Shown piece after piece: positions 15,876 through 20,760 of a DNA stretch of 44,401 nt; the stretch's first letter is position 1, and every line of letters begins with the position of its first letter. The notes under the pieces are model-generated. The model made no database searches. It was given only the letters and a program-made list of their open reading frames with translations, and was not told the DNA's origin. The translations under genes and the position numbers were made by a program. This DNA comes from Pirellulaceae bacterium (lineage in GTDB: Bacteria > Planctomycetota > Planctomycetia > Pirellulales > Pirellulaceae), in NCBI GenBank assembly GCA_026989685.1, contig JALSIV010000390.1, positions 1 to 44,401 on the forward strand. Direction: 5' to 3'.

Positions 15876-18800
15876 ATGTGCGCCGTGATCTCGATCTGCC
15901 TCAAGCGTTTTTTGGGTACCGCCGGTTTGGCATGGTTCGTTTTGTGCGGGACTCGTTTGCTCGGTGGTGAATGGCCCGCTTTCCGCGCCAATGCGGCGCG
16001 GACGGCATCGACGGCAGAGTCGCTTCCACCCGACATGACAGAGCTGTGGCAGATCGACCTGGGAACGCCTCAGCCGGCGTGGCCGCGGAGCGATCGGATG
16101 ACGTTCGACCGCGCCTACCAGCCGGTCGTCGCCGGCGGCCTGGTGCTGGTCGGGAGCAGCCGGGACGACACCTTGCGGGCGTTCGATCTGAGCAGTGGCC
16201 GGCTGAAGTGGCAATTCGCGACCCAGGCTCCCATTCGTTTCGCTCCGGCCGTGATGGAGGGACGGGTTTACTTGGGGAGTGACGATGGTTTTCTGTACGC
16301 CCTGTCGTTGTCCGATGGCCGGTTGTTGTGGACGAAACGAGGCGGTCCCGACGAGTCGCTCGTTTTGGGAAACGGCCGTGCTATTTCCAAGTGGCCGGTG
16401 CGGGGCGGCGTGGTGGCGCTTGACGGAAAGGTCTATTTCGCCGCGGGAATCTGGCCGTCCGACGGGATCTATTTGTACGCGCTGGACGCTGAAAGCGGAA
16501 AGGTGATCTGGTGCAACGACCAGGCGGGTGCCATCTATATGGCACAGCCCCACGGCGGCGCCGAAGCGGAAAGCGGCGTGGCCGCTCAGGGGTACCTGGT
16601 GGCCGATGGGGACTTCCTGCTGGTACCGACCGGTCGGGCCGTTCCCGCGGCGTTTCGCCGTGCCACGGGCGAGTTCGCCTACTTTCATTTGCAGAAGTAT
16701 GGGCAACGCGGCGGAGCCCTGGCCATGCTGGCCGGCGGAGTCTTTTTCAATGGCGGAATCGCTTTTCAAGTCGCAACCGGAGAAGCCATAGCGAGGTTCG
16801 GCCCGGGGCCGCTGGCGGCGGCCGGTGCGACGATCTACCGAGCCGTCAAGGGAAAGGTCTCCACGTACACTTGGAAGGAAGTCACCAAGAGCGATCGTCG
16901 AGGCAACCCGATTGCCGCTCGAGAACTGGCGGCCGGGCTGGCGGCGCCCGGTTTTCCCCAGGTCACATCGATCGCCGTGGCTGGCGGGCATGTCGTGCTC
17001 GGCGCAGCAGGCCGCGTCGGTCGAGTCGTTCCCGGAGAGAAGCAGCTCGCGTGGCAGGCGGAAGTCGAAGGAACCGTGCTGGGGCTGGCGGTTGCCGACG
17101 GGCGTCTGGTGGTCAGCACGGATCAGGGAAAAATCGTCTGCTTTGGAACGCCGGTCGAGCTGTCCGACCGTAGGCCCGACTCGTCGACCATACCGGCTCC
17201 GCGTATCGTTCCGGCAGATATGCTTGGGGCGACGCAGCGATGGAGCAAGCAGCTATCGGTCCCCGCCGGATTCGCCGTGGACTTGGGGACAACCGATGGC
17301 GACTTGGCTCTGGCCATTGCCCAACAGATGCCGCTGCATGTGATTACCGTCACGTCCGATGCGAAGACGGCTGCGCGTTTGCGCGAACGATTTCGCGCGA
17401 TCGGGATGCTGGGACAGCGGATATCGGTTTGGCAACGGTCCCCGGAAAAAACGGGGCTTCCCGCCTGGTGTGCCGATCTGGTGGTGAGCGAGCAAGGATG
17501 GAAGGAGCCGATTGGGCGACTCAAGCCGGAAGCCGAGCGAATCCAGCGTCCCTACGGCGGACTGGTCTGCCTTTCCAATCCGGAGAACTGGGCAGAGACC
17601 CGCCGGCGAGGTCCACTCAAGGGTGCCGGCGAATGGACGCATCAATATGCCGATCCGGCCAATACGCTCAACAGCGGTGATCGACTGGTGGGCGGCCGGC
17701 TGACGATCTCCTGGTTCCGCGACATCGATTTCGACGTTCCGCAGCGCCACGGCCGCGGTCCGGCGCCTCTGTTTTGGCAAGGCATCCTGTTTCACGAAGG
17801 ACTGCACGGCGTCGTTGCGGTGAATGCGTATAACGGCAGTGAGCTGTGGCGATATGAAGTGCCCGAGATTCTGAAGGCGTACAACGGCGACGAACTGATG
17901 GGGACGGCGGGAACCGGTAGCAACATGTGTGTGGCCGGGGGCCGTCTCTATCTGCGGCACGACGAGTTTTGCGACGTGCTCGATGCCCGCACCGGCCGAA
18001 GACTCGACATGTGGAAGACTCCGTTGGATGAGTCCAATCAGCGGCGACCGTGGGGATATCTGGCTGCCGATGGCGAGCGGGTGTACGGGAGCGAGGCCGA
18101 CACCGACCACATCGTGACCTACCGCTACGTCAACCGTGGCGGCGACATGAGCCGATTGTGGACGGAGTCGAAGGCTTTGTTCGCCAAGGACGCGGCGACG
18201 GGGAGACTGCTGTGGCGGTACGCGAGTCAACATTCGATTCGGCACAATGCGATTGCCGTGGCATCGGGGCGCGTCTTCTTGATCGATCGACCGCAAGCCG
18301 AGTTTGATCGGGTGAAGCGGCCCAAGGAACGGCATCATCCGCCGGGGATTGTGCGAGCCCTCGATGCCAAGACGGGCCGTGTCGTGTGGGAACAGGCGAA
18401 GGACGTCTTTGGGACGCTGTTGATTGCCGTGCCGCAGGCCGACCGTTTGATCATGGCCTATCAGCCGACCCGTTTCCGGCTCGACTCGGAGCGAGGGGAT
18501 CGATTGGCCGTGTTTCGGATGAGTGACGGAGAACGATTGTGGGACCAGGCGGTCAAGTACGAGTCGCGACCGTTCGTACGGCAGGGAGTGATTTACACTC
18601 AAGGCGGCGCATGGGACCTGGAAAGCGGGAAAGCGGTTTCGTTCCCGTTTCGCCGATCGTACGGTTGCGGAATCCTGGCGGCGTCGGAGCGGTTGCTCGT
18701 CTTTCGATCGGCCACGTTGGGCTATTACAATATCGGCCAGGATTCCAAAGTGCGGAACTTCGGCGGGATGCGTCCGGGATGTTGGATCAACGCTTTGCCG

Positions 18801-18899
18801 GTAGGCGGAATGGTAGTCGTCCCCGATGCGTCGGCCGGCTGTCGCTGCAGCTACCTCAACCGCTCTTGGATCGCCCTGCAGGGAACGCCTGTCCCATAG
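15876..18899 (+). CDS. PQQ-like beta-propeller protein with an internal degenerate methyltransferase-like segment
   Basis: Signal peptide and GEWPAFRANAARTA start; repeated propeller blades (FDLSSGRLKWQF, YALSLSDGRLLW, LDAESGKVIW, LDAKTGRVVWEQ). ATG 15876 with Shine-Dalgarno aggaga. Confidence 0.88.
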   Translation: MCAVISICLKRFLGTAGLAWFVLCGTRLLGGEWPAFRANAARTASTAESLPPDMTELWQIDLGTPQPAWPRSDRMTFDRAYQPVVAGGLVLVGSSRDDTLRAFDLSSGRLKWQFATQAPIRFAPAVMEGRVYLGSDDGFLYALSLSDGRLLWTKRGGPDESLVLGNGRAISKWPVRGGVVALDGKVYFAAGIWPSDGIYLYALDAESGKVIWCNDQAGAIYMAQPHGGAEAESGVAAQGYLVADGDFLLVPTGRAVPAAFRRATGEFAYFHLQKYGQRGGALAMLAGGVFFNGGIAFQVATGEAIARFGPGPLAAAGATIYRAVKGKVSTYTWKEVTKSDRRGNPIAARELAAGLAAPGFPQVTSIAVAGGHVVLGAAGRVGRVVPGEKQLAWQAEVEGTVLGLAVADGRLVVSTDQGKIVCFGTPVELSDRRPDSSTIPAPRIVPADMLGATQRWSKQLSVPAGFAVDLGTTDGDLALAIAQQMPLHVITVTSDAKTAARLRERFRAIGMLGQRISVWQRSPEKTGLPAWCADLVVSEQGWKEPIGRLKPEAERIQRPYGGLVCLSNPENWAETRRRGPLKGAGEWTHQYADPANTLNSGDRLVGGRLTISWFRDIDFDVPQRHGRGPAPLFWQGILFHEGLHGVVAVNAYNGSELWRYEVPEILKAYNGDELMGTAGTGSNMCVAGGRLYLRHDEFCDVLDARTGRRLDMWKTPLDESNQRRPWGYLAADGERVYGSEADTDHIVTYRYVNRGGDMSRLWTESKALFAKDAATGRLLWRYASQHSIRHNAIAVASGRVFLIDRPQAEFDRVKRPKERHHPPGIVRALDAKTGRVVWEQAKDVFGTLLIAVPQADRLIMAYQPTRFRLDSERGDRLAVFRMSDGERLWDQAVKYESRPFVRQGVIYTQGGAWDLESGKAVSFPFRRSYGCGILAASERLLVFRSATLGYYNIGQDSKVRNFGGMRPGCWINALPVGGMVVVPDASAGCRCSYLNRSWIALQGTPVP

Positions 18900-18947
18900 A
18901 TGCTTGCTGAAAACACCGAATCGGCCCACAACCACGGGAGAACCGCC

Positions 18948-19871
18948 ATGAAACGACGATTCACGAATCTGTTTGCAGCGGACGGTGGCCACCGGCGATG
19001 GAAGAGCGTTATCGAGTTTTGTGCCGTCGGCCTGATGGTATGCGCCGCTTGGGGTCAGGAAGACTTGAACGCGAAGCGTGATCGTGCGGTGGCTCCCAAA
19101 GACGGACCGATCGTATTGTTCGACGGCAAGTCGCTCGATGCGTTTTATGTGTGGCTCAAGGATACCAAGCGGGAAGATCCTCGAGGCGTGTTCCGCGTGA
19201 CCGACGGGATGATTCATGTGTCGGGGGACGGGTTGGGTTGTCTGACGACGAAGCGGGAGTACCGCGATTATCATTTGGTGCTCGAGTACCGCTGGGGCAA
19301 GCGTACTTGGGGAGCACGCGAGAATCGGACTCGCGATTCGGGCCTGCTGATCCACAGTGTCGGTGCGGACGGAGGCTATCACGGGACGTGGATGCCGTCG
19401 CTTGAAGTGCAGATCATCGAAGGCGGCGTGGGGGACTTCATTCTGGTGGCGGGCACCGACGAAAAGGGGAACCCGGTTCCCTTGTCGGTGACGTGCGAAG
19501 TGGGGCGCGACCGGGATGGAGAAGTGATCTGGAAGAAAGGCGGCAAACGCGAGACCTTCGACTTGAAGAACCGCAAGCGAATCAACTGGTACGGCCGGGA
19601 TCCCGACTGGAAGGATGTGCTCGGATTCCGCGGGCGCAACGACGTGGAGAGCCCCGGTTTTCTCTGGACTCGGTTGGACGTCCTCTGCGATGGCGGGCAT
19701 GTGGCCGTTTATGTCAATGGGAAGCAAGTCAACGAAGCATTCGACGTGGTTCCCAGTTTCGGGCGGTTGCAGTTGCAAACGGAGTTGGCGGAGATCTTCG
19801 TGCGCAAGTGGGAGTTGTGGCCTGTCGGCAAAGGGCCGAAACCCGCGCCGGCCATCCAGGACGGCCGGTGA
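18948..19871 (+). CDS. DUF1080 (3-keto-disaccharide hydrolase-like) protein
   Basis: PIVLFDGKSLDAFYVWLKD..., DYHLVLEYRWGKRTWGARENRTRDSGLLIHSVG, SLEVQIIEGG, RLDVLCDGGHVAVYVNGKQVNEA, LQLQTELAEIFVRKWELWP. Confidence 0.92.
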   Translation: MKRRFTNLFAADGGHRRWKSVIEFCAVGLMVCAAWGQEDLNAKRDRAVAPKDGPIVLFDGKSLDAFYVWLKDTKREDPRGVFRVTDGMIHVSGDGLGCLTTKREYRDYHLVLEYRWGKRTWGARENRTRDSGLLIHSVGADGGYHGTWMPSLEVQIIEGGVGDFILVAGTDEKGNPVPLSVTCEVGRDRDGEVIWKKGGKRETFDLKNRKRINWYGRDPDWKDVLGFRGRNDVESPGFLWTRLDVLCDGGHVAVYVNGKQVNEAFDVVPSFGRLQLQTELAEIFVRKWELWPVGKGPKPAPAIQDGR

Positions 19872-19902
19872 GGTGTGAGGGAGTGGGCTCGGCGGACACG
19901 CA

Positions 19903-20760
19903 ATGACGAACATCGATCAGTTCGAGAGCGTATTCAAGGCGGCAACGAAGACGCCGTTCGAGCGGATACCGGTGCGGACCGCCTCGGTGATCTTGGTGAC
20001 CGACGTCGATGCCGAGCAGACGGTCGCGTTTCAGCGGCGCGTGGAGTCATTCCTGGAGGAAATGGGAGAGCGGCGTCCGCAGCAATACTGCGTGATCGCG
20101 GGTGACCAGCTAGGAAGCGTGTCGGGCCTGCTGGATGCGATTCGCGAAAGCCGGGCCGACTTGATCTGCACCTACCGCAATCTGCGGATTCCGGCGACCG
20201 AACATCCCTACAGTCTGGGAGTCTACGTGGACGTCATGAGTCAGGTTGCCGAGGCTCCGCTGCTGTTGCTGCCTCGCCCCGAGATTCTCGCCGAGCGTCC
20301 CGATCTGATGCGCAACACTCGAGAAGTGATGGCGGTCACCGATCATCTGACCGGTGACCATCGCCTGGTGAGCTATGCGGCTCATTGCACGGCCGATGGT
20401 GGCAAACTGTTTTTGTCGCATATCGAAGATGCCGCCATCTTTGAACGCTATATGGACGCCATCGCCAAGATCCCTTCGATCGACACCGACGTGGCTCGGC
20501 ATGATCTGCTCGAACGCCTGCTGAAGGACCCTCGAGACTACATTCGTTCGTGCCGCGAGTCTCTGGCGGAAGAAAGCCGGCTTGTCGTGGAAGAAGTCGT
20601 CAAGCTGGGACGGCGGTTGGCGGATTACAAGAACATGGTGACGGACCACGGAATCGACTTGCTGGTACTGCACACCAAGGATGCCGATCAGTTGGCCATG
20701 CACGGTTACGCCTATCCGCTGGCGGTGGAGTTGCGGACGGTACCTCTTTTTCTACTCTGA
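19903..20760 (+). CDS. UspA-like (universal stress protein) domain protein
   Basis: Alpha/beta protein with late HGIDLLVLHTKDADQLAMHGYAYPLAVELRTVPLFLL tail, tightly followed by an antiporter gene. Confidence 0.6.
   Translation: MTNIDQFESVFKAATKTPFERIPVRTASVILVTDVDAEQTVAFQRRVESFLEEMGERRPQQYCVIAGDQLGSVSGLLDAIRESRADLICTYRNLRIPATEHPYSLGVYVDVMSQVAEAPLLLLPRPEILAERPDLMRNTREVMAVTDHLTGDHRLVSYAAHCTADGGKLFLSHIEDAAIFERYMDAIAKIPSIDTDVARHDLLERLLKDPRDYIRSCRESLAEESRLVVEEVVKLGRRLADYKNMVTDHGIDLLVLHTKDADQLAMHGYAYPLAVELRTVPLFLL

Follow-up and report, generated by a model that had tools for sequence, protein, structure and literature searches.

A degenerate methyltransferase fold between two complete propellers in a predicted exported protein of a Pirellulaceae bacterium

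The window, i.e., the whole stretch of 44,401 nucleotides of Pirellulaceae DNA analysed here, encodes a predicted exported protein in which a class I SAM-methyltransferase fold with a degenerate SAM pocket is set between two complete beta-propellers. The best explanation, with a probability of roughly 0.6, is that this domain is a pseudo-methyltransferase retained between the propellers as a rigid module for packing. The protein comprises, in this order, a putative signal peptide, an N-propeller, the methyltransferase-like domain and a C-propeller, and the following features were assigned.

15876..18899, + strand: whole gene, 1007 aa (ORF and start codon, Pfam PQQ_2 at 131 bits, AF2, syntenic orthologue in the same genus)
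15876..15968, + strand: predicted Sec-type signal peptide, aa 1-31 (hydropathy heuristic; AF2 pLDDT <50 over aa 1-31)
15972..17195, + strand: N-terminal PQQ/BamB-like beta-propeller, aa 33-440 (best Pfam PQQ_2 stretch 55-266; all-beta in AF2)
17217..17600, + strand: degenerate class I SAM-methyltransferase fold, aa 448-575 (Pfam, family profile, AF2, Foldseek)
17268..17300, + strand: motif I remnant GFAVDLGTTDG (family consensus GYCLDLGCGDG) with Gly473 replaced by Thr (columns of the 80 listed homologues)
17352..17354, + strand: position 493 at the end of strand 2, Thr in place of the ribose-binding acid (Asp/Glu in 70 of the 80 listed homologues)
17622..17648, + strand: methyltransferase/C-propeller junction GAGEWTHQY, the inter-domain joint common to both domain orders
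17634..18896, + strand: C-terminal beta-propeller, aa 587-1007, the most constrained module (all-beta in AF2; lowest dN)
18948..19871, + strand: downstream 3-keto-disaccharide hydrolase-like gene (PF06439), shared with the same-genus orthologue

The peptide in which a first-pass annotation of this DNA had noticed methyltransferase motifs is in frame with the gene at 15876-18899 (+) and corresponds to aa 466-573 (17271-17594). A minus-strand ORF at 17253-19913 (886 aa), like other ORFs that overlap the gene, was taken to be a shadow ORF of GC-rich coding sequence, because homology and synteny follow the plus-strand frame. The full-length AF2 model (pLDDT 90.1, pTM 0.89) is all-beta at about 33-430, alpha/beta at 447-565 and all-beta again at 608-1004, with low confidence at 1-31. 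The high pTM indicates that the relative placement of the modules is confidently predicted, which by itself is no proof of packing. The flanking regions are two complete propellers rather than the two propeller halves originally described. At the joint, W587 and H589 are conserved in 80/80 listed homologues and T588 in 79/80, and the joint is also kept in permuted paralogues. Six cysteines of the C-propeller (aa 685, 699, 931, 969, 989, and 991) are conserved in nearly all homologues; they could form disulfides or a metal site, consistent with export.

The insert is confirmed, at the level of predicted structure, as a class I SAM-methyltransferase (SAM-type Rossmann) fold. Compared alone with Pfam Methyltransf_25, the window domain scores E 4e-4 and 21.3 bits, below the curated cut-off of 27 bits; the assignment is thus marginal from this single sequence and becomes firm because its relatives match. 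Among 76 family members scanned, 75 match Methyltransf_25 (E 1e-3 or better, best 6e-15), the 20 Pfam families to which members match consist entirely of methyltransferases or enzymes with that fold, and the family profile aligns with the solved methyltransferase 3dlc at E 2e-16. An AF2 run on aa 448-589, with an alignment of 76 rows, gave a model with pLDDT 92.4 and pTM 0.88 and the topology alpha-beta-alpha-beta-alpha-beta-beta-alpha-beta, which ends at strand 5. Strands 6-7 are not visible in AF2 as separate strands in the clade of the window protein and are apparently missing. In Foldseek, the domain model has 3dlc as its top match (E 3e-7, TMq 0.71), and the best 50 matches listed are class I SAM methyltransferases or close relatives of the same fold. 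The structure prediction and Foldseek therefore agree with the methyltransferase-like fold first read from the letters.

An NAD(P)-binding Rossmann fold would share glycine-rich loops and an acid after strand 2, which are textbook features of both superfamilies, but the Pfam matches are methyltransferase-type throughout and no dehydrogenase is present among the best 50 Foldseek matches of the domain model. A continuous propeller with no Rossmann fold, which structure prediction had been suggested to check, is contradicted by the AF2 model, where an alternating alpha/beta insert lies between all-beta modules. Both readings are scarcely credible. The window domain resembles class I SAM methyltransferases (Pfam Methyltransf_25/11/31; 3dlc, RebM 3bus) in strands 1-5 with their helices and in the order of motifs I-IV. 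It differs from them in lacking Gly473 and the strand-2 acid, in ending after strand 5, in its predicted export and in its position between propellers.

The family to which this protein belongs is large. Matches were found in 25 of the 60 related genomes searched, with up to 54 places in one genome, which bears out the mention of planctomycete propeller-methyltransferase fusions in the first-pass annotation. A scan of contigs from 84,980 species, using an alignment headed by the window sequence, yielded at least 80 close homologues. According to their record titles, those listed belong to Planctomycetota, Verrucomicrobiota, Kiritimatiellae and Hydrogenedentota, plus a few other bins, among which the odd ones (Nitrospiraceae, Nealsonbacteria, and Omnitrophota) may be binning errors. 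The window protein can be aligned over its full length with 59 homologues (40-68% identity), and its sequence has the features of an exported planctomycete/verrucomicrobial propeller-methyltransferase family: putative signal peptide, N-propeller, methyltransferase-like domain, WTH joint and C-propeller. The literature searched, an incomplete sample, contained no paper on such fusions or on exported bacterial methyltransferases of this kind.

The consensus of the domain in the 80 listed homologues (GYCLDLGCGDGxLAYELA...IYAVDxDP...ARxxLxAAGLYGxRVTVHxxD...FANLIVS) is that of a textbook class I methyltransferase. Asp469 is present in 80/80, Gly473 in 75/80, Gly475 in 79/80, an acid at position 493 in 70/80 and the strand-3 Asp522 in 51/80, so that the SAM pocket is apparently largely intact in most close homologues. 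In the window copy, motif I reads DLGTTDG and departs from the pattern D/E-x-G-x-G-x-G at Thr473, as the first-pass annotation had noted for the lost glycine. Beyond what was noted then, the acid at the end of strand 2 is also lost, being Thr493 in the window protein and Ala in its same-genus orthologue (L033), which carries Ser471, Thr473, and Ala493. A sequencing error behind the change of Gly473 to Thr is disfavoured, since the same change occurs in the independent MAG containing L033. Asp469, Gly471, and Gly475 are still kept in the window copy, which leaves room for weak or altered ligand binding, although the protein is probably unable to bind SAM. Two tryptophans, W456 (17241-17243) and W542 (17499-17501), are common to the window protein and L033, at positions where the homologues are aliphatic; W542, just after motif IV, might fill the empty pocket.

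The window protein and its close homologues are predicted to be exported by the Sec pathway. In all homologues whose N-terminus could be read (about 75, the window protein included, judged by hydropathy rather than by SignalP), a hydrophobic segment lies immediately ahead of the conserved N-propeller start WPxxRxDAxRSGYT, usually together with an A-x-A or similar site. The signal peptide proposed at first is thus also seen by the hydropathy heuristic. Tat export, by which a folded domain already loaded with SAM could be carried, was rejected as a candidate: a few homologues have RR ahead of the hydrophobic stretch, but no clear Tat motif is seen. The same genomes also encode a class I methyltransferase that stands alone, keeps motif I intact (DLGCGNGFYSLQMA) and begins with a signal-peptide-like segment (L147 on contig 324 of the window's own genome; L166 in the same-genus genome G001), possibly a second type of exported methyltransferase.

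Class I methyltransferases require SAM, which is produced and consumed in the cytoplasm. It is conceivable, if doubtful, that the intact homologues bind SAM, SAH or an adenosine-like ligand in the periplasm, either methylating an extracytoplasmic substrate held by the propellers or sensing the ligand, and that at least two paralogues in the lineage of the window protein abandoned this. If true, this would imply SAM or a mimic of it outside the cytoplasm of PVC bacteria. The question of extracytoplasmic SAM in planctomycetes and verrucomicrobia becomes directly testable, and a pocket kept over several phyla and lost without the fold in some members offers a clean natural comparison of ligand and scaffold roles. 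For the window protein itself, a role as an extracytoplasmic sensor, whose altered pocket binds SAM, SAH or an adenosine-like ligand and signals to the propellers, is unlikely. The three retained residues of motif I, the intact pocket of most close homologues that are also predicted to be exported, and a paralogue group that keeps GxGxG and the strand-2 acid despite the loss of Asp469 are consistent with it. Against it, Gly473 and the ribose-binding acid are missing from the window copy, its whole domain is less constrained than those of its homologues, and we know of no extracytoplasmic SAM pool in these bacteria, nor was anything on point found in the literature searched.

The loss of the pocket is derived. 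In a tree built from the C-propeller alone (quick search, SH-aLRT support), which is independent of the trait because the methyltransferase columns are excluded, the window protein groups with L033 (100), the intact L035 joins this pair (97), and the clade around them is one of intact homologues. This nested position indicates that the pocket was lost within the lineage. In an own-genome paralogue (L030, contig 37), motif I is replaced by GYALVEPSRNAEA; this protein lies in a different subclade with mostly intact members and lost the motif separately from the window gene. A third own-genome copy, on contig 109, likewise lacks motif I, and the complete set of pocket residues was found in no propeller-fused member of the same-genus genome G001. 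The degeneration, overlooked as a lineage-specific event by the first-pass annotation, appears specific to the window's lineage, with close homologues in several phyla keeping an apparently complete pocket while being predicted to be exported.

An active family of exported methyltransferases, in which the window copy is a dead paralogue acting as the regulatory partner of an active sister, is rather improbable. Motif I and the strand-2 acid do persist in the homologues, as often does the strand-3 Asp (51 of the 80 listed), and inactive methyltransferase partners are reportedly discussed for other families (PMC10908127). However, the full motif is also missing from the own-genome propeller-methyltransferase proteins found by the methyltransferase profile (C37 and C109), which leaves no active sister in view, with the proviso that the profile may miss divergent members. 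In addition, the domain has no substrate-binding extension, and strands 6-7 are apparently absent in this clade.

The degenerate domain is under relaxed constraint. Identity in the methyltransferase domain tracks propeller identity closely across 72 full-length proteins, and the lowest residuals of the former against the latter belong to L033 (-2.9 sd) and the window protein (-2.7 sd). Between these two, the Nei-Gojobori dN is 0.46 for the methyltransferase domain, 0.32 for the N-propeller and 0.13 for the C-propeller, and in all modules it is well below dS, which at about 1.6-2.0 is near saturation. This pattern indicates a methyltransferase domain that is relaxed, yet apparently still constrained. 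L033 has lost 5/7 conserved pocket positions against 12/49 others (p=0.02). The window protein has lost 3/7 against 15/49 (Fisher p=0.67), and a specific inactivation of its pocket was rejected as a statistical claim since the losses are not enriched there; general relaxation, which fits the data equally well, is all that is claimed. The hydrophobic core, R503, G510, G513, R515, P529, R555, and RPYGG are kept in the window domain. By its open ORF, dN lower than dS and conserved gene order, the window gene does not appear to be dead.

Neutral decay, with the domain having no role in the window's genus and heading for loss, would agree with its faster divergence relative to the propellers in that genus, but is quite improbable in view of dN/dS well below 1 in the domain (dS being nearly saturated), the retained core and conserved residues in a high-confidence fold, and the deletion of the domain in none of the 21 paralogues examined. 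These 21 distinct paralogues, from two paralogue-rich genomes, are those in which the region upstream of the W-T/S-H joint could be read. All of them contain the methyltransferase-like domain (E about 1e-15 or better), irrespective of whether motif I survives, and the paralogue group without Asp469 mentioned above keeps the strand-3 Asp as well. Persistence of the fold as the pocket decays, retention in 21/21 paralogues and the full-length pTM of 0.89 fit the scaffold role that the first-pass annotation had offered as one option.

Some relatives are circularly permuted. L226 (G001:C108) and L227 (G024:C447) have the order signal, methyltransferase domain, C-propeller, N-propeller; in L227, profile matches place the methyltransferase domain at 55-170, the C-propeller from 182 and the N-propeller, at full profile length, at aa 641-1037 (8.6e-54). 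Matches to the C-to-N junction occur in many genomes of the phylum, including the window's own (G000:C186:16694-17257), with the methyltransferase profile N-terminal of the junction in most of the junction loci read, and some permuted relatives keep a GCGDG or GSGNG loop. The joint between the methyltransferase domain and the C-propeller is constant, and the N-propeller stands either before or after this pair. Such permutation indicates that the propellers are separate units and fits a compact three-module body; it suggests that the modules assemble into a single compact unit in either domain order.

For the pseudo-methyltransferase kept as a packing module, the following scheme may be proposed. 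The ancestor of the clade would have possessed the full SAM pocket that is still found in most close homologues. Once exported by Sec, the protein would fold up outside the cytoplasm as a compact body of three modules, with both complete propellers packing against the class I methyltransferase fold. In the window's genus this module, without the motif I glycine and the SAM-ribose acid, would be a pseudo-enzyme that serves as a rigid link and a surface for packing, holding the propellers in a fixed mutual position. The propellers, probably mainly the C-terminal one, would house the conserved activity or ligand site.

Inactive methyltransferase subunits of heteromeric enzymes are comparable in that they keep the fold after losing SAM-binding residues, with a structural role proposed. 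To our knowledge, these catalytically inactive subunits are cytoplasmic or nuclear and paired with an active methyltransferase, whereas the fold of the window protein is predicted to be exported and is fused to propellers. Full-length Foldseek matches comprise BamB (the best), quinoprotein dehydrogenases and tetrathionate hydrolase. BamB, an outer membrane lipoprotein, has a similar propeller fold, and the window protein matches PQQ_2; the window protein differs from BamB in having two propellers and a methyltransferase domain, and scores 70.2 bits against the 285.2-bit cut-off of the BamB equivalog NCBIfam TIGR03300. PQQ-dependent alcohol dehydrogenases and tetrathionate hydrolase likewise have exported quinoprotein-like propellers, and the score for TIGR03075 (PQQ_enz_alc_DH) is 51.7 bits against a cut-off of 480 bits.

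Genomic context yields no function, as no neighbour is common to the 80 listed homologues. Around them no conserved operon partner was found, the PF06439 gene is not recurrent, and the commonest neighbours, labelled from their sequences by eye, are sulfatases (10 loci), DUF1501-like proteins (9), cytochrome-type proteins (6) and a tandem paralogue (6). Within the genus, the order of genes for a DAG kinase-like protein, M20 peptidase, propeller-methyltransferase protein, 3-keto-disaccharide hydrolase-like protein, 285-aa protein and CitMHS/ArsB-type transporter is kept at L033, with the neighbours about 77-84% identical. The product of the hydrolase-like gene (18948-19871) has a signal-peptide-like start and 82% identity in the same genus. 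Five distant paralogues (L012, L022, L026, L031, and L032) carry an extra N-terminal LamG/concanavalin-like region, recognised by eye, before the first propeller.
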